A DNA stretch of 64,000 bases from Flavobacteriales bacterium (GCA_022361195.1 JAKSBJ010000244.1:1-64000); one strand, 5' to 3'. Shown: positions 12,119-39,660, counted from the first letter of the stretch. The notes: generated by a model not told the origin, from the sequence alone. Numbers and translations: made by a program.

Positions 12119-14095
12119 TCAAATTTGAACACCCACTAAACAAACGTCATCAATCTGCTCCATTTCCCCTTTCCACTCAACAAATCGATCTACCAAAATT
12201 TTCTTTTGTTTAGCCATGGGCTTTGTATGAATGCTCAGTAATAGTTCTCTAAACTGTTTGTATTTGAATTTTTTACCTTTTGGTCCGCCAAATTGATCCA
12301 CATAACCATCCGAAAAGATATACACCTTATCACCTTTTTGAACCGGAAGACGATGATTAGTAAATGGTTTACTTCTTTCAGGCATATAACCAACCGGCTG
12401 CTTATCAGCCTTGATTTCCTGAATTTCATTTTCCCGAATCAAGTACAATGGATTGTTGGCACCGGCATATTCTAAAACCATTTCCTTTTCGTCCAAACTG
12501 CAAAGCGCCATGTCCATACCATCTTTACGCGCATCCCGCCTATTCAAAGCCTGAATAACCTTTTCTCTTAACTCATCTAAAATCTCGGACGGTTTAGTAA
12601 TGCCTCTTCCCTTAATAATTTCATGCAGGAAATTCGTTCCAATCATACTCATAAAGGCTCCCGGAACACCATGTCCGGTACAATCGACTGCGGTAAAAAT
12701 CTTTTTTCCATTATGCTGGGTATACCAAAAAAAATCGCCCGACACGATATCCTTAGGACGAAGTAAAAACAACGAATCATCGAACAAGGCAATGTTTTCT
12801 GTCGATGGTAATAATGCTTCTTGAATCTTTGAAGCATACTCTAAACTGGCCGTAATATCCTGATTCTTTTCATTGATAATTTGGTTGGCCTTGGTCAACT
12901 CTAAGTTGGTCTTAGCCTTTAAACGATTCCGCGCATAAAGTGAAAAAACCAACCCAATTAACAACAACACTCCCACTGCCGAAGACCACATGATGATTCT
13001 GGAATTGTTTAATCGTTCTCTGTTTTTGTCATTCTCTAATTTGGCAATTGAATTTTGTTGAGTTAAGATTTGATTCTCCTTTTTGGTCTCTTCCGATTCA
13101 TACTTCTCCATCATCTCAATGACCAACTGTTTATTAGCCCTTTCCGAAACAGTGTCTTTCCAGGCGGTGTACTGCTTATGAGCCGCCAGAGCCTTATTAT
13201 AAAATCCAAGAGCTTCATAAGAGGTAGATAGACCTATATACGATTCTTTCATCAACTCAGGTGAGTTAACATACTTTGCATATTTCAATCCTTCACTATC
13301 ATATTTCACGGCCATTTGATATTGGCCCTGAATTTGAAATGCACGCGCTAAATTCCGATAAGAAACAGATACATCACGATAATTACCCAAGGACTCATTT
13401 AACTCAATAGCTCGAAAAAAGAAATTTTCGGCCTCTCTTAAATCACTCTGTGCAGTGATTATTCCAAGATTTACATAGGCTCCTGCAATTCGTTCCTTGT
13501 CTCCAGTTTTTTCAGCTAGTTCCAATTCCAACTTTGAAAACACCTCAGCTGAATCCTGACGACCCAATTGCCAACATATACTTCCCAAATTATGATAGGA
13601 AACAATCGCTCCCTCCAAATCTCCTGAAGATCTTTCTATACGTGCTGATTTCTCAAAATAATACAACCCTCGCTCATAATCGCCAGTATTAAAATGGACA
13701 ACTCCCATGTTGTTGTACGCTTTAGCGATATAGGCCGAATCAGAATACTTTGCCGCCCGATCCAGGGTTTGTTGAGAATAATACATGGCCGAATCGAACT
13801 TTTCTACGTTGATATACGCGTAGGCCATTAAGTTTAATGCAAAAGTGATATCAGATTGTGAGCTGTTCAACGCAAGGTCGAGTGTACGTGTAGCTATCCC
13901 AAAAGACCGCTCCGGATCTTCATTTTCGTACAGACCAAAAAGATTAGAAAGCACTTCAATCTTATCGTGGCCCTCTTCATCAAATTCGTCAGGAAGATCA
14001 ACATAATCTACCTGAGCTCGGACACTCCATCCACAAATGATCATGATAATAACCCAACAGTATTTCACTTGTCCTGAGACCATTCGTAGCTCCAA
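12119..14095 (-). CDS. TPR-containing SpoIIE/PP2C-type serine phosphatase
   Basis: A 658-residue sensor phosphatase. Order: signal peptide or first membrane helix about 10-28 (start could also be the Met at 14083), tetratricopeptide repeats about 50-320 (YNNMGVVHFNTGDYERGLYYF and similar), coiled coil about 325-368, membrane helix about 370-388 (IMWSSAVGVLLLIGLVFSLYA), coiled linker, then a cytoplasmic SpoIIE domain about 410-658. Metal-binding aspartates are visible in VSGDFFW, VDCTGHGVPGAF, FSDGYVD and IDDVCLV. Such proteins dephosphorylate serine-phosphorylated anti-sigma antagonists or similar partners in response to periplasmic signals; the substrate here is not known. Same architecture as 48068-50176 and the same catalytic domain as 26266-28095. 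Confidence 0.9.
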   Translation of the reverse strand: MELRMVSGQVKYCWVIIMIICGWSVRAQVDYVDLPDEFDEEGHDKIEVLSNLFGLYENEDPERSFGIATRTLDLALNSSQSDITFALNLMAYAYINVEKFDSAMYYSQQTLDRAAKYSDSAYIAKAYNNMGVVHFNTGDYERGLYYFEKSARIERSSGDLEGAIVSYHNLGSICWQLGRQDSAEVFSKLELELAEKTGDKERIAGAYVNLGIITAQSDLREAENFFFRAIELNESLGNYRDVSVSYRNLARAFQIQGQYQMAVKYDSEGLKYAKYVNSPELMKESYIGLSTSYEALGFYNKALAAHKQYTAWKDTVSERANKQLVIEMMEKYESEETKKENQILTQQNSIAKLENDKNRERLNNSRIIMWSSAVGVLLLIGLVFSLYARNRLKAKTNLELTKANQIINEKNQDITASLEYASKIQEALLPSTENIALFDDSLFLLRPKDIVSGDFFWYTQHNGKKIFTAVDCTGHGVPGAFMSMIGTNFLHEIIKGRGITKPSEILDELREKVIQALNRRDARKDGMDMALCSLDEKEMVLEYAGANNPLYLIRENEIQEIKADKQPVGYMPERSKPFTNHRLPVQKGDKVYIFSDGYVDQFGGPKGKKFKYKQFRELLLSIHTKPMAKQKKILVDRFVEWKGEMEQIDDVCLVGVQI

Positions 14096-24094: not shown

Positions 24095-24604
24095 GTGAAT
24101 TCGAAAGTTGAAGAAATATTGAATCGTCAGATTGCGGCAGAAGCATCTTCGTCGCAACTGTACCTGTCCATGGCTTCATGGGCTGAGTGTCATGGGATAA
24201 ACGGAACTGCAAAATTTTTGTACTTGCATTCCGACGAAGAAAGAGAGCATATGCTCAAACTGGTTCGTTTTGTGAATGAAAGAGGGGGAACGGCAATTAT
24301 TCCAGCAATCGATAGTCCAAAGAGTGACTTTGATTCGCTTCGTCAACTTTTTGTGTTGTTGTTAGAGCACGAAATTAAAGTGACAGAAATGATCAACGAA
24401 GTGGTTCATGTGTGCCTGCAAGAAAAAGATTACACAACACACAATTTCATGCAGTGGTTTGTTGCGGAGCAGTTGGAAGAGGAAGCTTTAGCCAGAGAAA
24501 TTGTGGACAAACTGAATATGATTGGTGACGATAAAGGAGGATTATACCTCTTTGACCGTGACATTGAAATGATGCAAACAAGTGCAAATGCTCCTCAAAA
24601 CTAA
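24095..24604 (+). CDS. ftnA: Ferritin
   Basis: A 169-residue non-haem ferritin. The di-iron site is visible: Glu in QIAAEASSSQLYLSMASW, EEREHM (Glu and His ligands), and the acidic run AEQLEEEAL near residue 130. It stores iron as ferric oxide in the cytosol. The only sensible start is the GTG at 24095, since family members begin at this point. That start is close behind a weak promoter-like pair (TTG at 24058, TATATTTT at 24078), which would leave almost no leader; the promoter is therefore uncertain. Confidence 0.95.
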   Translation: MNSKVEEILNRQIAAEASSSQLYLSMASWAECHGINGTAKFLYLHSDEEREHMLKLVRFVNERGGTAIIPAIDSPKSDFDSLRQLFVLLLEHEIKVTEMINEVVHVCLQEKDYTTHNFMQWFVAEQLEEEALAREIVDKLNMIGDDKGGLYLFDRDIEMMQTSANAPQN

Positions 24605-24672: not shown

Positions 24673-25212
24673 TTGAGTAAAAGAATTTATATAGCGATCA
24701 TCTCTTTAGCTCTAATTAGCTTTAATTCCTCTCGTCTGAATGTAAGTCAGATTAAGGATACACGCTCTGTTGTGAAAGCTTTGTACATCTACACCTTTGC
24801 AACTCTTATAGATTGGCCTGCGGATCAACGAAAAGGAGATTTTGTAATTGGGGTACTTGGGTCGGAGGATGCCGTTTATGACGAATTGAATAAAAAGTAT
24901 TCCGGAAAGGACATCGGAAAGCAGGAAATTCAAGTAAAACGATATTTAAGCAAGTCAGAAATAAACAAAGTTCACATTTTATACGTAACAGAGGATGAGA
25001 GCAATCAAATGGGCTCCCTTTCTACCCAGTTTAAGTCAAAATCGACACTCTTGGTTACTGAAAAAGCGGGCTATTTGGACAAAGGCTCTGTTATCAACTT
25101 TGTTGTAGAAGGAAATAAACAGAAATACGAGATAAATAAACGAAACGCAAAAAAGCATAATCTAACCATTGCTGATAAACTAGCGGGGCTGGCGGTAAGA
25201 GTGATTGAATAA
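24673..25212 (+). CDS. YfiR/DUF4154 family periplasmic protein
   Basis: A 179-residue protein with a TTG start, a short signal peptide about 1-19, and the YfiR (DUF4154) pattern: KALYIYTFATLIDWP, then GDFVIGVLGSEDAVYDEL, KVHILYV and a closing KLAGLAVRVIE. In Pseudomonas, YfiR is a periplasmic repressor of the membrane diguanylate cyclase YfiN. No GGDEF protein is present here; instead the following genes code for a TPR protein, a HAMP/SpoIIE phosphatase and a cyclase receptor. Its stop TAA overlaps the next ATG (TAATG), which suggests translational coupling. The role as a periplasmic regulator of the neighbouring sensors is inference. Confidence 0.85.
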   Translation: MSKRIYIAIISLALISFNSSRLNVSQIKDTRSVVKALYIYTFATLIDWPADQRKGDFVIGVLGSEDAVYDELNKKYSGKDIGKQEIQVKRYLSKSEINKVHILYVTEDESNQMGSLSTQFKSKSTLLVTEKAGYLDKGSVINFVVEGNKQKYEINKRNAKKHNLTIADKLAGLAVRVIE

Positions 25213-26230
25213 TGAGAGGGTTTATTAAAATATCGATGTTTGTGATAGCCATGGGTGCTTGTAAAAGCATGATGGCTCAGCAGCTGACTGCTAAGGCATA
25301 CGATTGCTATAAGCAAAAGGATTATGCCTGTGCTCAAAACTGGATTGACTCGGCTATTGTTTCCAACGAAAGAAGCAATTCGCAAACATGGCAATTGAGA
25401 GGTGTGGTTTATCGTAATCTTGAAACTCCTCAAAGTAAGATTATCGCAGTATTGCTATTGAATCTTTCGTTCAGGCCAGGAATCTGGACAAAGACAATGC
25501 TGATAAAGAAAAAATCGATAATTATCTCAAAAATACTATCATCCGTTATTACAACGATGCCGTGACTGCTCTTGAAGCAAATGATCTTAAAGAGTCTGAG
25601 AAGTCTTACGAATTATACAAAAGCAAGCAAGTTCAGTATGTTAATCCTTCGCAGGATTTTCACCAGTCAGATATTGATTTTTACAACGCTTTGGGTGGTC
25701 AGTACATGAACAATATGAGCATTTTGCCAGAGGGAGCTCAACGCGACGAAATCCGAGCAAAAGGAATTGCTTTCTTTGAAAAAGTACTTGAGTTGGATGC
25801 TGAAAACTTCCAAGCCAACTTTAATGTAGGATTAATTCACTACAATGAAGGTGTTGACATTACAATGGCCATGAGTGGTTCTACCGATCTTTCTATCGAA
25901 ATGATTATTGAAAACACTGGCCGATCAGAGGAACTTTTCTTTACTGCTTTACCATATTTGCATAAAGCAGAGAAAATGGACCCGAAAAGTGAAGAAACAA
26001 TTGAAGGTATTACCGGATGTTATTATGGGCTTCACGATGACGAGAATTATAATAAATACCGTAAAATTCTGGATGAGATGATCATTGATGATCTTTTAAA
26101 ATCTTACGATGCTAATCCTAATGATTTGGATGTCGTAAAAGAACTCTGCAGAATTTACTCAACAACGATTAAAAACCAACAAGAATACGATAAATTCAAG
26201 GCTGTGTATGATAAGTTGAGAGAGAATTAA
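25212..26230 (+). pseudogene. TPR protein interrupted by a one-base frameshift
   Basis: Two frames together make one TPR protein of about 339 residues. The 5' part (from ATG 25212, signal peptide ending MMAQ) reads correctly to NLETPQSK near 25437. It then turns into an unlikely sequence and ends at 25565. In the +2 frame the natural continuation DYRSIAIESFVQARNLDKDN begins at 25439 and runs to the stop at 26230. The join lies in the run AGTAAGATT at 25434-25442. One extra A would restore the frame. Repeats of the tetratricopeptide type are visible in both halves (AYDCYKQKDYACAQNWIDSA; AENFQANFNVGLIHYNEG). It may be a true loss or a sequencing error; the 3' half is not decayed. It sits in the YfiR-phosphatase-cyclase operon. 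Confidence 0.8.
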
Positions 26231-26265
26231 GAGGAGATTGAGCGTATAGCCCCTCAACAGTATCC

Positions 26266-28095
26266 ATGAGTTTTAGATTTACAATAGGAAAGAAAATAGG
26301 TACCGGATTTGGGGTACTTATTTTGTTTATTATTATCGTGTTTGGGGCGACCTTCTTTGCGGTTAATAATGGTATTGAAACGTTTAAGAAAAACGACAGT
26401 ACTTCTAATGAGTTGATTGAGAACATCACACCATCCAAAGAAAAGGTAATGCAACTAAAAGCCTCTTTGGGTGAAGCCAAAAGATTGGCTATTCAATGGG
26501 TAGTTGTTCAATCCCGAAACGATACTCCGGACAAAGTTCGTTTGAATGTTTTGATTGATAAGAACATTCCAAAAATAAAGAGTGAAGTAGCACACCTATC
26601 ACAAGGATGGAACAATCAAGAAGATGTTGACCTTTTTAACCGGGCAGAAGGTAAAATAGACACCTTATTTGATTACTACCGCCAGGTAATGGATTTGCTT
26701 CCGGACAATGCAAGTTATGATGATGGCTTTGGACGATTTACGGCTGAATTTATTGTGGGGCAAAATGGTGATGCCACCTATGCTTATGAAGTAATTGATC
26801 AAAATTTATTGACGCTTCAAAACAGTCTTGAAAAACAAGAGAAAGACGCCCTTGATCTGGTTAAAAAATCTTCGGAAGAGGCTAAAGCCAAATTCCAGGC
26901 ATTGACACTCTACTGGATTCTAGGTGCCATTTTGATTATTGTTGCAATTCTTATTGCCATTTTCACCACCCGTACCATTGTAAAACCAATTCGTTCCCTC
27001 AAGCACGTCTTAGTTTCATTGGGCCGTGGAATTTTCCCTAAAGAGCGAATCGCTGTTACTAACGATGAAATAGGAGACATGTCCACCGCTATGATTGGCT
27101 TAGTTGATGGACTAAAGAAAACCACTGATTTTGCAAAAGAAGTAGGACAAAGTAACTTTAGCTCTCCTTACCAACCTCTGAGTAATGAAGATGTTTTAGG
27201 ACACGCATTGCTTAAGATGCGAGATGAATTAGCTGAAACGGAAAGAATTCTCGAACAAAAAGTGAAAGAAAGAACTGAAGAGGTTGTTCGTCAACGCGAT
27301 GAAAATGAGCGTCAGCGTCTTAAGTTAGAAGATCTTTATAAAGATGTAACCGATAGTATCCGTTACGCCAAACGACTACAATATTCTATTCTTCCTCCTA
27401 CCGAACGTATTGCGGAAGTTTGTCCTGATTCATTTGTTCTTTTTAAACCAAAAGACATCGTTTCTGGAGACTTCTACTGGTTCGACAAAATTGGAGGAAA
27501 ATCATTCTGTGCATCAGTAGACTGTACTGGACATGGAGTTCCTGGAGCATTCATGAGTTTGGTTGGAGCTAACGGACTTAACGCTGCTGTTAAAGAACAT
27601 AACACGATCGATCCGGGTGATGTACTGAACGAATTGAACAAATTTGTTTCAGATTCATTGAACAAGGGAAGTGAAGACAATGGAGTGAGAGACGGAATGG
27701 ATCTTTCATTGTGTACTATTGATTATGAAAAGATGGAATTGCAGTACGCAGGTGCCAACAATCCACTTTACTTAATTCGTAACAACGAATTCACCATTAT
27801 TAAAGCCGATAAGTTTGCCATTGGTTCGTTTGAACCAGGAACAAAACATTATACCAGCCATACCGTGGCACTTGAAAAAGGAGATATTATTTATTTGTTT
27901 AGTGATGGTTATGCCGACCAATTTGGAGGAGACAAGGGAAAAAAATTCCTTTACAAGCATTTCCGCGATGAACTAATGGCCATTCATAAGGAACCTGTGG
28001 CAGTTCAAAAGACCCGTCTTGACGATACCATTAAAAAATGGCAGGGTTCATACGAACAAGTTGATGATATTCTCGTAATAGGAGTGAGAATATAG
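26266..28095 (+). CDS. HAMP-domain SpoIIE/PP2C-type sensor phosphatase
   Basis: A 609-residue membrane phosphatase. Order: TM1 about 10-32, periplasmic helical sensor about 33-210 (four-helix-bundle type), TM2 about 216-238 (YWILGAILIIVAILIAIF), HAMP about 238-292 (RTIVKPIRSLKHVLVSLGRG), coiled coil about 325-360, and SpoIIE phosphatase about 365-609. Metal-binding aspartates are visible in VSGDFYW, VDCTGHGVPGAF, FSDGYAD and VDDILVI. It would remove phosphate from a serine-phosphorylated partner in response to a periplasmic signal. It starts 35 bases after the TPR gene and its TAG stop is followed immediately by the ATG of the cyclase. The likely input is the YfiR-like protein; this is inference. 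Confidence 0.92.
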   Translation: MSFRFTIGKKIGTGFGVLILFIIIVFGATFFAVNNGIETFKKNDSTSNELIENITPSKEKVMQLKASLGEAKRLAIQWVVVQSRNDTPDKVRLNVLIDKNIPKIKSEVAHLSQGWNNQEDVDLFNRAEGKIDTLFDYYRQVMDLLPDNASYDDGFGRFTAEFIVGQNGDATYAYEVIDQNLLTLQNSLEKQEKDALDLVKKSSEEAKAKFQALTLYWILGAILIIVAILIAIFTTRTIVKPIRSLKHVLVSLGRGIFPKERIAVTNDEIGDMSTAMIGLVDGLKKTTDFAKEVGQSNFSSPYQPLSNEDVLGHALLKMRDELAETERILEQKVKERTEEVVRQRDENERQRLKLEDLYKDVTDSIRYAKRLQYSILPPTERIAEVCPDSFVLFKPKDIVSGDFYWFDKIGGKSFCASVDCTGHGVPGAFMSLVGANGLNAAVKEHNTIDPGDVLNELNKFVSDSLNKGSEDNGVRDGMDLSLCTIDYEKMELQYAGANNPLYLIRNNEFTIIKADKFAIGSFEPGTKHYTSHTVALEKGDIIYLFSDGYADQFGGDKGKKFLYKHFRDELMAIHKEPVAVQKTRLDDTIKKWQGSYEQVDDILVIGVRI

Positions 28096-31000
28096 ATGTC
28101 ATATATGCTGCGCATAGCACCTTTAATACTTCTTTCCTTTCTTTTGTTTTCAACGGCTAGTTTAAGCCAGCAAAAGAGTATTAAGTTTGACAAGCTTTCT
28201 ATTGAAGATGGTTTATCACAAAGCTCAGTTTCTGCTATTCTTCAAGATCGTTATGGTTTTATTTGGATTGCCACGCAAGATGGTCTAAACCGGTATGATG
28301 GTTACGAATTTAAAACCTTTAAAAACGATCCTAATAATCTCAATTCAATACCTAACAACTATATCCACAACCTGCTTGAGGATAAGGAAGGAAATTTGTG
28401 GTTTGGAACCAATCGCGGGATTGGAAAGTTAAATCCACTCACCCATCGCATTGAAAAAGTCAACAGAGGCACTTTTCCCGCTCTTAGAGGCTATGTTTTT
28501 ATTGATTTAGCCTTCGACTCCCAAGGACATTTATTAGCCCTCTCAGACAAGCATGGGATCAATAAGATTAATCTTAAGACCAAAAAAGTTGACATTATTA
28601 AGTCAATCAAAGGAAACTTTGAGTTTTCTGCCCTTCATATTGATGCCAATGGCGAATTGTGGGTAGGAACAAAGACGGGACACGTATATCACGCTCCACC
28701 ACCATATGAGCACTTTCAACACATTAATTACAACGATATATTTAGCGTTTCAGCCATCAACAAAATTTCTACCGGAGGTAACGGCTATATTCTGGTCTCT
28801 TCAGAAAATGGACTGTACACCATTGATGAAAATTATCGCTTAAATACCATCTCCATGCATCCCTATTTAAGGGTGAACAATATCCGTTGCGCTTATGTTG
28901 AAGATAGTGCTCATACCTGGATTGGAACAGCAGAACATGGTTTACTATTACTACAGAAAAATAAAAAGGGAAAAGAAAGTGTTTACCAATACAAGAAGAA
29001 CCCCTACGATGCTTCCAGCATCACTGATGACGAAGTAAAAACAATTTACGAAGACCAAAGCGGTGTATTTTGGCTCGGTACGGGTAAAGGAATTTCCAAA
29101 TTCGACAAATACAAACAAGGATTTACTACTGTTTCACTGAATAACGATCCTAAAAAAGGGCTAATTGATTACAGTGTATGGTCTTTTGCTGAAGATAGCT
29201 TAGGCAATATTTATGTTGGAACTCAAAAAGACTTAACCATCTACGACCCACGCAGGAAGCGTTTTCATCATATCTTCCGTGATCGAAATGAACAAAGTAG
29301 ATTACTCAAAATCCACATTGAAAATCCACGACGTATTTGGTTAGGGTACGAAGACGGCCTTTATCTACTAACAATTCGTGACCTTATTAACGAAGATTAT
29401 TCTTTCGAAAAAATTCCATTTTTGGGTGAAGAAAACGATCGAAAAGTAATTGTTTACCAAATTGAACCTGCCGAAGACAATAATCTTTGGATTGGATCAA
29501 AGGCCGGCCTATCCATCCTCAATAAAAACACACTCGAATGCACTTTCTATAAAGCTTCTGATGGAGGACATCAAAGCATTGGTGAGGGTTCTGTTAAGAA
29601 TATTTATCGCGATTTAAGTGGAAAAGTTTGGATCGTTACCTCCGACCAAGGACTCTACAACATTATTGAAAAAGTAGACGGAACTTTCTATTTCCGTCAT
29701 ATACCTATTATCAACCATACCGAATCCAACAGCCACATTACCTGCATTCTGCAAACCGAAAAGAACAACCTTTGGCTGGGTACTTATGGTGAAGGCATCA
29801 AACTCCTCAATCTGCGATCTAAACGAACCATCAATTACACTGAAACAGAGGGTTTATCCAACAATGTTGTTTATGGACTTTTAGAAGATAGTGAAGGAAA
29901 TATTTGGGCCAGTACCAATAAAGGAATCTCCAAATTCAACCCAAAAACCGAACGTTTTACGACTTATGGGGTTCGCGATGGACTTCAAAGCAATGAATTC
30001 AACACCAACGCCTATATGAAATCCCGCTCGGGTAAATTATATTTTGGTGGAATTAACGGTTATAACATCTTTAATCCTAAAGAAATTAACATCAACCCTC
30101 ACCCTCCTAATGTAATCATTTCCAGTGTTGTGTTGACACCTAAAGGTTTAGGCGAAAAAGAGATTATCATAAGCAATGTATATGATTCAGTCTCTCTGGA
30201 TTTAAACTACGATCAAAATGACCTTTCTTTTGAGTTTTTCGCGACCAACTTTTCCAACCCTGGTAAAAACAGGTTCAAATTTATTCTTAAAGGACATGAA
30301 GAAAACTATACCTATGTAGAGAACGAAAACAAGGTTCACTACATTCTTCCACACGGTAATTATATTTTCGAGATTTATGCGCAAAGTGCTGACGGTGTTT
30401 GGTCTAAGCGACCAGCAATTGTCACTGTCAACATCAATCCCCCATTTTGGTTAACCTGGTGGTTCAGAATTGTCGCCATCGTTTTGTTAACTGCCGCTAG
30501 CTTGTTCATTTACAGACGGCGAGTAGATACTATTCGTCGCCAAAAAGTACGTTTGGAAATTGAAGTAGTTAAACGAACGCGTCAGGTCACCGAGCAAAAC
30601 AAAAAAATCCAAGATCAAAAACAAAAGGTTGAGATCCAAAAAGCCAAAATTGAACACCAAAAGGAACTTCTTGAGAACGAAAAAGAAAAAGTAGAACAGC
30701 TCCTATTGAACATTCTTCCTGAAGGAACTGCGGAGGAACTCAAAAATAAAGGTCGTTCAAAGGCAAGATACTACCGCAATGTTTCCGTCCTGTTTACAGA
30801 CTTTGTTGGTTTTTCTAAGATTGCAGAGGACATGAAACCTCAGGAATTGGTTCAGCAACTCGATGGTTATTTCTCAAAATTTGATGAGATCATAGAGAAA
30901 TACGATCTGGAAAAAATTAAGACCATTGGTGACTCTTATATGTGTGCCGGAGGTGTTCCAATCCGAAACAAAAGTAACGCCATTGAGGTAACACTTGCCG

Positions 31001-31998
31001 CCCTGGAAATCAAGAATTATATGCTTGAACGGGAGCAGGAAGACAAGGAGAAAGGCAAAAACAGTTGGAAGATTCGTATTGGAATTAACACCGGAGAAGT
31101 GATTGCCGGAGTAATTGGTTTGAAACGATTTGCCTACGATATTTGGGGTGCTACTGTGAATCAAGCACAACGAATGGAAATGCACGGCCAGCCAGGAACT
31201 GTAAACGTATCCGGAAATACTTACGAATACATTGCTCCCTATTTTGAATGTACCTATCGTGGTAAAATTCAGACCAAGCATAAGGGAATGCTAGACATGT
31301 TTTATGTCAAAGGAATTAAACCTGAACTTTCCGAAAATGGTGAAGGAAAAATACCGAATCCAAAATTCTGGAAAATTGTTGATCTCCATCTCTACTCTGC
31401 TATTAATTACATGAAAGCAGAGCGTCACATTATGAAAATTCTGGAGACTCAACTCTCACCAAAATTATTGTATCATAGTATTAACCATACCATTGACGTA
31501 ACCAAGGCCGTTGAACGTCTTGCCATAATGGAAGGAATTACCGATGAGGATCTTTTCCTCCTAAAATCTGCAGCGACCTATCATGACGCAGGATTCATTG
31601 AAAAATATGATAAAAATGAAGAAATAGGGATGCGTTTAGCTCGCGAAATTCTCCCTAAATATGGCTACACCCAAGAGCAAATTGATGTAATTGACGGTCT
31701 AATAAAAGCCACTGAAATTCCGCAAAGTCCGAAAACACATTTACAAGAAATTATGTGTGATGCCGACCTGGATTACCTTGGTAGAGATGATTTCCATGAT
31801 ATTGCCAGCTTGTTACGACGTGAGTTAAGAGAACATGGCAAATTGGACAGCGATAAGGCCTGGGATGAAATTCAGCTAAAATTCCTTAATCAACATACCT
31901 ACTTCACCAAATCAGCCATAAAATTACGACAAGAGAAGAAAGAAAAGCACATTAAGGAAATTGAAGAAAAGTTAAATACCTATCAATACAAAGATTAG
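28096..31998 (+). CDS. Propeller-Y_Y_Y receptor fused to adenylate cyclase and HD domain
   Basis: A 1300-residue receptor. Order: signal peptide about 1-25; two-component-type propeller repeats about 30-690 (FIWIATQDGLNRYDG, LWLGTYGEGIKLLN); Y_Y_Y domain about 700-775; TM about 785-806; coiled coil 812-872; class III cyclase about 890-1085; HD domain about 1125-1265. The cyclase has the metal-site Asp in VLFTDFVGF, KTIGDSYM with the lysine of adenylate cyclases, and DIWGATVNQAQRM with the aspartate of the same group, so the product is probably cAMP. The HD domain carries the HINHT-type His, YHDAG and CDADLDYLG. Usually such propeller receptors end in a histidine kinase. No gap separates it from the phosphatase gene. 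Known as domain families; this order is unusual to me. Confidence 0.93.
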   Translation: MSYMLRIAPLILLSFLLFSTASLSQQKSIKFDKLSIEDGLSQSSVSAILQDRYGFIWIATQDGLNRYDGYEFKTFKNDPNNLNSIPNNYIHNLLEDKEGNLWFGTNRGIGKLNPLTHRIEKVNRGTFPALRGYVFIDLAFDSQGHLLALSDKHGINKINLKTKKVDIIKSIKGNFEFSALHIDANGELWVGTKTGHVYHAPPPYEHFQHINYNDIFSVSAINKISTGGNGYILVSSENGLYTIDENYRLNTISMHPYLRVNNIRCAYVEDSAHTWIGTAEHGLLLLQKNKKGKESVYQYKKNPYDASSITDDEVKTIYEDQSGVFWLGTGKGISKFDKYKQGFTTVSLNNDPKKGLIDYSVWSFAEDSLGNIYVGTQKDLTIYDPRRKRFHHIFRDRNEQSRLLKIHIENPRRIWLGYEDGLYLLTIRDLINEDYSFEKIPFLGEENDRKVIVYQIEPAEDNNLWIGSKAGLSILNKNTLECTFYKASDGGHQSIGEGSVKNIYRDLSGKVWIVTSDQGLYNIIEKVDGTFYFRHIPIINHTESNSHITCILQTEKNNLWLGTYGEGIKLLNLRSKRTINYTETEGLSNNVVYGLLEDSEGNIWASTNKGISKFNPKTERFTTYGVRDGLQSNEFNTNAYMKSRSGKLYFGGINGYNIFNPKEININPHPPNVIISSVVLTPKGLGEKEIIISNVYDSVSLDLNYDQNDLSFEFFATNFSNPGKNRFKFILKGHEENYTYVENENKVHYILPHGNYIFEIYAQSADGVWSKRPAIVTVNINPPFWLTWWFRIVAIVLLTAASLFIYRRRVDTIRRQKVRLEIEVVKRTRQVTEQNKKIQDQKQKVEIQKAKIEHQKELLENEKEKVEQLLLNILPEGTAEELKNKGRSKARYYRNVSVLFTDFVGFSKIAEDMKPQELVQQLDGYFSKFDEIIEKYDLEKIKTIGDSYMCAGGVPIRNKSNAIEVTLAALEIKNYMLEREQEDKEKGKNSWKIRIGINTGEVIAGVIGLKRFAYDIWGATVNQAQRMEMHGQPGTVNVSGNTYEYIAPYFECTYRGKIQTKHKGMLDMFYVKGIKPELSENGEGKIPNPKFWKIVDLHLYSAINYMKAERHIMKILETQLSPKLLYHSINHTIDVTKAVERLAIMEGITDEDLFLLKSAATYHDAGFIEKYDKNEEIGMRLAREILPKYGYTQEQIDVIDGLIKATEIPQSPKTHLQEIMCDADLDYLGRDDFHDIASLLRRELREHGKLDSDKAWDEIQLKFLNQHTYFTKSAIKLRQEKKEKHIKEIEEKLNTYQYKD

Positions 31999-39266: not shown

Positions 39267-39660
39267 TATTCATTGCAAAGGTAATACTTACTTTTGAACC
39301 ACTCTCATCGAACTCCACTCCGTCGGACAAACTCTTCATTAAAAAGATTCCTCGGCCGTTTAATTTTTCCAAATTCTCCGGTGCAGTTGGATCAGGCAAG
39401 TTCTCAAAGTCGAACCCCTCTCCTTCATCGTGAACGGTAAACACAACCTTCTTTTCATTTTGTTCTACCGAAACTACAACCCGCTTTTCGGGCAAACTAT
39501 GGTTCCCATGAACTATGGCGTTATTTACCGCCTCCGTAACCGCGATGAGGACGTTTCCATAACTATCCTCATTTAAGCTGAGCTCTTCGCAAACCGAATC
39601 AATCATTGATTCTACCTCAGCTATCTTATCCAAGCTAGATGCAATCTCAATACTTTGCAT
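39259..39660 (-). CDS. RsbW/SpoIIAB-like serine kinase ATPase
   Basis: A 133-residue GHKL-type ATPase of the anti-sigma-factor kinase group. The N box is visible in AVTEAVNNAIVHGNH, then DEGEGFDF (G1 box) and GRGIFLMKSLSDGVEF (G2 box). In Gram-positive systems such proteins phosphorylate STAS antagonists and hold sigma factors, and SpoIIE phosphatases reverse them. The three SpoIIE proteins in this window are possible counterparts, but they are not adjacent. It starts 3 bases after DUF4175 and overlaps ybeY by 8, so it is part of that operon. Confidence 0.88.
   Translation of the reverse strand: MQSIEIASSLDKIAEVESMIDSVCEELSLNEDSYGNVLIAVTEAVNNAIVHGNHSLPEKRVVVSVEQNEKKVVFTVHDEGEGFDFENLPDPTAPENLEKLNGRGIFLMKSLSDGVEFDESGSKVSITFAMNNG

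Follow-up and report, generated by a model that had tools for sequence, protein, structure and literature searches.

A conserved YfiR, TPR and membrane phosphatase gene module in Flavobacteriales as a candidate cross-envelope relay

The locus and its encoded proteins

We analyzed a 64,000-nucleotide stretch of DNA from a Flavobacteriales bacterium, referred to here as the window. Open reading frames (ORFs) and Pfam matches revealed five genes that run head to tail, encoding a ferritin, a YfiR-like protein, a TPR protein, a two-TM (transmembrane)/HAMP/SpoIIE phosphatase, and a cyclase-HD protein:

24095..24604, + strand: ferritin (PF00210, E 3.2e-39)
24673..25212, + strand: YfiR/HmsC-like periplasmic protein, 179 aa, TTG start (PF13689, E 1.7e-32)
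25212..25565, + strand: N-terminal part of the TPR protein (signal peptide plus start), an ORF cut by a frameshift
25562..26230, + strand: C-terminal part of the TPR protein, in the other frame (weak TPR matches, E 0.008)
26266..28095, + strand: membrane SpoIIE phosphatase, 609 aa (PF07228, E 1.5e-21; HAMP, 2.4e-4, and 4HB_MCP_1, 3.7e-4, both under their cut-offs)
28096..31998, + strand: propeller-Y_Y_Y-TM-class III adenylyl cyclase-HD protein (Reg_prop, 2e-41; Y_Y_Y, 1.8e-7; Guanylate_cyc, 9e-51; HD, 7e-5)

An earlier note on this DNA had described the last four genes as a head-to-tail operon coupled by a TAATG and by a stop directly followed by an ATG. ORFs, Pfam and the raw sequence bear out the order, except that the TPR gene occupies two frames because of a frameshift in the window. 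Both junctions are present in the raw sequence: the YfiR stop and TPR start share the TAATG (TAA at 25210-25212, ATG at 25212), and the SpoIIE stop ends at 28095 with the cyclase ATG at 28096, leaving no gap. An alignment with four orthologues, in all of which the TPR gene is intact, placed the lesion near 25443-25448, where the window copy is one base short; this may be a real lesion or an assembly error. TPR domains are clearer in the orthologues (TPR_19, E 6e-6), and by inspection the intact proteins carry N-terminal signal peptides. A plasmid search returned no record covering 80% of the query.

YfiR is known for restraining a diguanylate cyclase from the periplasm. The protein encoded here scored 113 bits against the YfiR Pfam profile PF13689, well above the curated cut-off of 24.9. 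Its AF2 model (pLDDT 89.7) gave Pseudomonas aeruginosa YfiR chains as the best Foldseek matches (TMt 0.68-0.77), and ranks 1-15 were all YfiR chains or YfiR complexes (E 1e-6 to 2e-5). When these YfiR proteins were compared with solved structures by sequence profile, there was no match, and the likeness is by fold only. P. aeruginosa YfiR has two cysteine pairs and connects a partner in the outer membrane to the periplasmic domain of an effector with HAMP (PMC4655355). The 179-aa protein here contains zero cysteines, and both pairs are absent; we note that the pairs are a trait of the P. aeruginosa protein and are not demanded by the PF13689 profile.

The phosphatase comprises a first TM segment (15-33), a periplasmic four-helix bundle, a second TM segment (215-233; both from a TM scan), HAMP, a coiled-coil linker, and a PP2C/SpoIIE domain of the SiaA type. 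Its AF2 model (mean pLDDT 82, pTM 0.44) contains long helices between the membrane segments, and its best Foldseek fold match is 6k4e (TMt 0.89). When a profile of 54 orthologues was compared with solved structures, the sole phosphatase matched was the SiaA PP2C domain (6k4e, E 7e-58), and the N-terminal half matched one chemoreceptor (PDB 6s18, E 7e-5). The NCBIfam SiaA model (NF038263) gave 222.8 bits, aligned to profile positions 337-657 of 658 only and below the equivalog cut-off of 700 bits. We class the protein, from sequence and predicted structure, as SiaA type by its PP2C domain. The metal-binding aspartates D402, D419, D547, D600 and D601 are invariant in the 54 sequences, as are P56 and W78 in the periplasmic domain; conservation is also strong in the linker that follows HAMP. 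A CHASE8-type periplasmic domain, as in YfiN, was considered and rejected: Pfam gave no CHASE8 match, and the 4HB profile and 6s18 were matched instead. The protein has no GGDEF match, its domains being 4HB-HAMP-PP2C. The genome encodes 40 SpoIIE proteins, yet the sensor domain of this type occurs in one only, the one beside YfiR. Two further SpoIIE phosphatases lie in the window, as open frames at 12122 (663 aa) and 48032 (714 aa).

Conservation of YfiR, TPR and phosphatase genes

We surveyed gene neighborhoods from three baits. A SpoIIE alignment searched against 84,980 species genomes yielded 80 loci. YfiR was present at every one of those with enough upstream sequence (73/73), and the gene table places TPR between YfiR and SpoIIE; seven seeming TPR absences were an effect of the distance cut-off. 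At these loci, the TPR start usually lies a few bases inside the end of YfiR. Because this first bait was the phosphatase itself, two more surveys, each of 120 genomes of the order, took YfiR and the periplasmic sensor domain as separate baits. Of 84 YfiR matches, 71 lay within 4 kb of a sensor domain; YfiR was upstream on the same strand in 70 of these, and the gap fits one TPR gene in all but one. Conversely, 71 of 77 sensor-domain matches adjoin YfiR. The six that do not comprise two at contig ends (G082 and G033:C9), one with an internal stop (G025), two weak matches (E about 1e-4 to 1e-3), and G028:C71. Counted by genome, 71 have both YfiR and sensor, 8 YfiR only, 1 sensor only, and 40 neither.

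The loci belong to Crocinitomicaceae, Cryomorphaceae, other Flavobacteriales, and unclassified Bacteroidota. Looking for the same order outside this strain had been put forward as a check in the earlier note, and the order proved to be conserved across many genera and families. After YfiR and TPR, the neighbor families were ferritin (43/80 loci), antisense shadow frames (33), and others at 25 or fewer. Chance adjacency of YfiR and phosphatase is ruled out by the reciprocal anchoring and these next-neighbor frequencies. Hence, as judged from gene order, the conserved unit is one of three genes (YfiR, TPR and phosphatase), widely kept in Flavobacteriales and related bacteria. Distance matrices compared with that of the four-helix domain and corrected for PP2C gave a partial r of 0.41 for YfiR and 0.67 for TPR, values that saturation and shared ancestry could also produce; they agree weakly with co-evolution with the four-helix domain.

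Ferritin precedes YfiR in most loci of the order as well, and the order ferritin-YfiR-TPR-SpoIIE extends over several families. Ferritin is a conserved upstream neighbor that probably lies outside the signaling module. We also observed that ferritin, at 24095-24604 in the window, is the upstream neighbor of the cyclase in relatives without the module.

Thirteen of the 84 YfiR matches had no sensor domain nearby, and four of these are YfiR-SpoIIE fusions. Such single proteins, in which YfiR is followed by a TM helix, a coiled coil and SpoIIE, are encoded in three other genomic loci (L169, L170 and L171) and in the genome under study:

L041:9641-11245, contig C373, - strand: YfiR-SpoIIE fusion, 534 aa

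One of the remaining matches is a YfiR-histidine kinase fusion (L168); three (L174, L177 and L194) adjoin CHASE8-HAMP-histidine kinase genes, with a TonB receptor upstream at the two such loci checked; one sits at a contig end with TPR adjoining (G082); one is a second YfiR copy with no evident partner (G025); and three are weak matches in one genus. In the wider phylum, YfiR was found in 29 of 247 genomes; most of the loci examined have it beside CHASE8-HAMP-histidine kinases, and others carry it as a histidine kinase fusion. In five other Bacteroidota loci (L271, L272, L273, L274 and L275), YfiR is joined to histidine kinases via a coiled coil and TM. At a locus from another group of the class (L276:5044-7578), the gene after YfiR encodes a four-helix/HAMP-like protein that has GAF and PAS domains and lacks a phosphatase. 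Because YfiR also stands beside or fused to histidine kinases, it appears to pair with receptors whatever their output. We read YfiR as a periplasmic input tied to varied outputs, which in this order are mostly the phosphatase.

The adjoining cyclase and candidate phosphatase substrates

The cyclase gene is distributed differently. Its product carries the motifs FTDFVGFS at 900, KIKTIGDSYM at 940, and FAYDIWGATVNQAQRM at 1012, and alignment to AC5 and AC8 showed that the two metal-binding Asp residues, the adenine-recognizing Lys and Asp, and the Asn/Arg pair are present. With metal, adenine-recognition and transition-state residues in place, the cyclase looks competent to make cAMP. The HD part retains its H...HD...D motif (YHSINHT, YHDAGF, DADLDYLG).

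The cyclase lies downstream in 25 of 58 testable module loci and is absent from the other 33. In nine relatives (L023, L025, L026, L030, L032, L034, L035, L037 and L038) it directly follows ferritin without YfiR, TPR or SpoIIE; since the ferritin-YfiR-TPR-SpoIIE order spans several families, the simplest reading is that an old module was lost from these relatives and the cyclase kept. The place after SpoIIE is taken by an HD-only protein in L176 and L188 and by a cyclase-HD protein without propeller in L181, L183, L187 and L218. At L029:1547-3678, L031:6306-8649 and L058, an NfeD-like gene and a flotillin (Band_7) intervene between phosphatase and cyclase. The HD-only proteins (L176:5923-6522 and its L188 counterpart) occur in one family, are 196-200 aa long and match the HD region at the C terminus of the cyclase protein; the NfeD-like protein of L031 has no Pfam match. 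We therefore rejected the reading of all four genes as a single unit, and cAMP signaling finds no support as the identity of the operon. The downstream cyclase-HD gene is a lineage-specific accessory, co-transcribed at best.

The earlier note suggested that YfiR may act on either the phosphatase or the cyclase. The phosphatase half of that proposal is favored by synteny, reciprocal co-occurrence and the YfiR-SpoIIE fusions. The other half, with YfiR acting directly on the periplasmic propeller-Y_Y_Y region of the cyclase and the phosphatase a mere neighbor, draws on adjacency in this lineage, and we regard it as very improbable: YfiR keeps the phosphatase as neighbor at loci that lack the cyclase, the cyclase is present in genomes without YfiR, and every fusion seen joins YfiR to SpoIIE or histidine kinase, never to the cyclase.

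What the phosphatase acts on is less firmly indicated. The Pseudomonas phosphatase SiaA removes the phosphate from SiaC, for which SiaB is the kinase (PMC7647112). Neither SiaB nor SiaC is encoded at the YfiR locus; both occur elsewhere in the genome. Nine SiaC proteins are present, and at two places SiaC adjoins DUF6272 (SiaB-like) genes, one of which has a SpoIIE protein facing. We take DUF6272 to be SiaB-type. Simulations put R652 and F612 of SiaA at SiaC (PMC7647112), and these positions correspond to V599 and K559 in the phosphatase here. In the SpoIIE protein of this genome that faces SiaC/SiaB, the V is also present and the loop differs. Because of these replacements, and of the same V with a different loop in the SiaC-facing protein, SiaC as substrate is a good guess and not a result; we give roughly even chances to its being the substrate on top of YfiR control of the phosphatase.

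STAS and RsbW-like proteins are alternative partners. The phosphatase could feed a STAS/RsbW-type partner switch, with an anti-sigma or other target in place of SiaC and with YfiR control unchanged. The genome has a STAS-STAS-HATPase cluster, two single STAS proteins and RsbW-like kinases, one RsbW-like ATPase being encoded in the same window. This alternative is the less likely of the two, at perhaps one chance in a few, as the PP2C domain is closest to SiaA and not to RsbU/SpoIIE by sequence and structure, and the nine SiaC proteins provide the matching substrate class. The RsbW-like protein is a small HATPase on the opposite strand (39280-39642, - strand; PF13581, E 6e-27).

A further possibility is that the relay is coupled onward to cAMP. 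Here the phosphatase would answer to YfiR and TPR, and the downstream adenylyl cyclase would be activated by a SiaC-like protein in its dephosphorylated form, as SiaD is by SiaABC; in Pseudomonas SiaABCD, the SiaA-type phosphatase controls the diguanylate cyclase SiaD (PMC7647112, PMC8457831). The cyclase directly follows the module in many Crocinitomicaceae and sister families, its adenylyl cyclase residues are intact, and the genome encodes 18 cNMP-binding proteins. Against this stand the majority of module loci without a downstream cyclase, the nine relatives that keep it beside ferritin without the module, the SiaC neighborhoods fetched, none of which holds a cyclase of this family, and the propeller sensor that the cyclase carries itself. 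We judge this pathway unlikely. More doubtful still is the full envelope-to-cAMP cascade, in which TPR/YfiR would act through the phosphatase and a dephosphorylated SiaC-type protein on the adjacent cyclase, and the fused HD would limit the signal; if true, it would be a SiaABCD analogue with cAMP output and YfiR-type input. Of the "cAMP or phospho-protein response" proposed earlier, the phospho-protein part is thus favored by the SiaA-type domain and the SiaC/SiaB homologues, while the cAMP part falters as the identity of the operon with a cyclase that is often absent.

A proposed relay and its relation to known systems

The reading that we prefer is that YfiR controls the membrane phosphatase through its periplasmic domain, which the comparative sequence evidence makes probable. 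We envisage a three-gene cross-envelope relay in which YfiR, with the secreted TPR protein, would set phosphatase activity, on or off: (i) TPR may release or hold YfiR, in place of YfiB; (ii) YfiR would act on the periplasmic four-helix bundle of the phosphatase, possibly by direct contact and with either sign; (iii) the signal would pass through HAMP and the coiled-coil linker to the SiaA-type PP2C/SpoIIE domain; and (iv) this domain would dephosphorylate a STAS-like phosphoprotein, most likely of the SiaC family. Because the TPR family carries signal peptides, YfiR, TPR and the four-helix domain are expected to meet in the periplasm. For RsbU, activation by a coiled-coil linker that dimerizes the PP2C catalytic domains is established, and the mechanism has been put forward as general, HAMP-linked phosphatases included (PMC12143880). 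The relay would be YfiBNR-like, with dephosphorylation replacing c-di-GMP synthesis. Against it counts the broken TPR frame in the genome studied here.

Within the open-access literature (subscription papers lay outside the scope), our searches found no paper with both YfiR and SpoIIE and, among the papers listed, no description of YfiR in Bacteroidota; the only paper with both YfiR and CHASE8 and the one listed for YfiR and Bacteroidetes each name YfiR a single time. The wiring of YfiR to a membrane phosphatase appears to be new against the literature searched. It gives a testable explanation of how envelope signals reach some of the many SpoIIE phosphatases that Bacteroidota encode, of which this genome has 40. 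The operon is present in the cultured Crocinitomix algicola and is therefore open to experimental testing.

The module resembles YfiBNR (TpbB) of P. aeruginosa in the YfiR fold, in an effector with two TMs, a periplasmic domain and HAMP, and in a third secreted partner encoded alongside. The two differ in effector output (GGDEF in YfiBNR, a PP2C phosphatase here), in the effector's periplasmic domain (PAS/CHASE8 as opposed to a four-helix bundle), and in the third partner, which in YfiBNR is the OmpA-like outer-membrane lipoprotein YfiB and here is a TPR protein with a signal peptide. P. aeruginosa YfiR also has cysteines, whereas the protein here has none, and it binds the periplasmic domain of its effector, whereas here the tie consists of gene linkage and fusions only. 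With SiaA and SiaABCD of P. aeruginosa the module shares the two-TM/HAMP/PP2C layout, the closest PP2C domain by sequence and structure, and SiaB and SiaC homologues in the genome. However, SiaABCD has no YfiR or TPR, and it holds siaB, siaC and the cyclase in one operon, whereas SiaB and SiaC lie away from the locus here; the proposed SiaC-contact residues differ, and the cyclase, where present, is adenylyl. Because it departs from the defining features of both systems, we regard the module as a variant of the YfiR-type relay, not a member of YfiBNR or SiaABCD.

RsbU and other sensor-linked PPM phosphatases likewise combine a sensor, a helical linker and a PP2C dimer, and linker-based activation has been described for them; RsbU differs in being cytoplasmic, switched by RsbT, and without a periplasmic regulator. 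The YfiR/CHASE8-HAMP-histidine kinase loci of other Bacteroidota are similar in that a YfiR gene adjoins a HAMP receptor gene, and differ in their histidine kinase output, CHASE8 sensor, and upstream TonB receptor in the two loci checked. YfiR is tied to a serine/threonine phosphatase in tens of genomes and by fusion, and elsewhere in Bacteroidota to histidine kinases; we therefore suggest that YfiR serves as a general input from the periplasm, combinable with different outputs.
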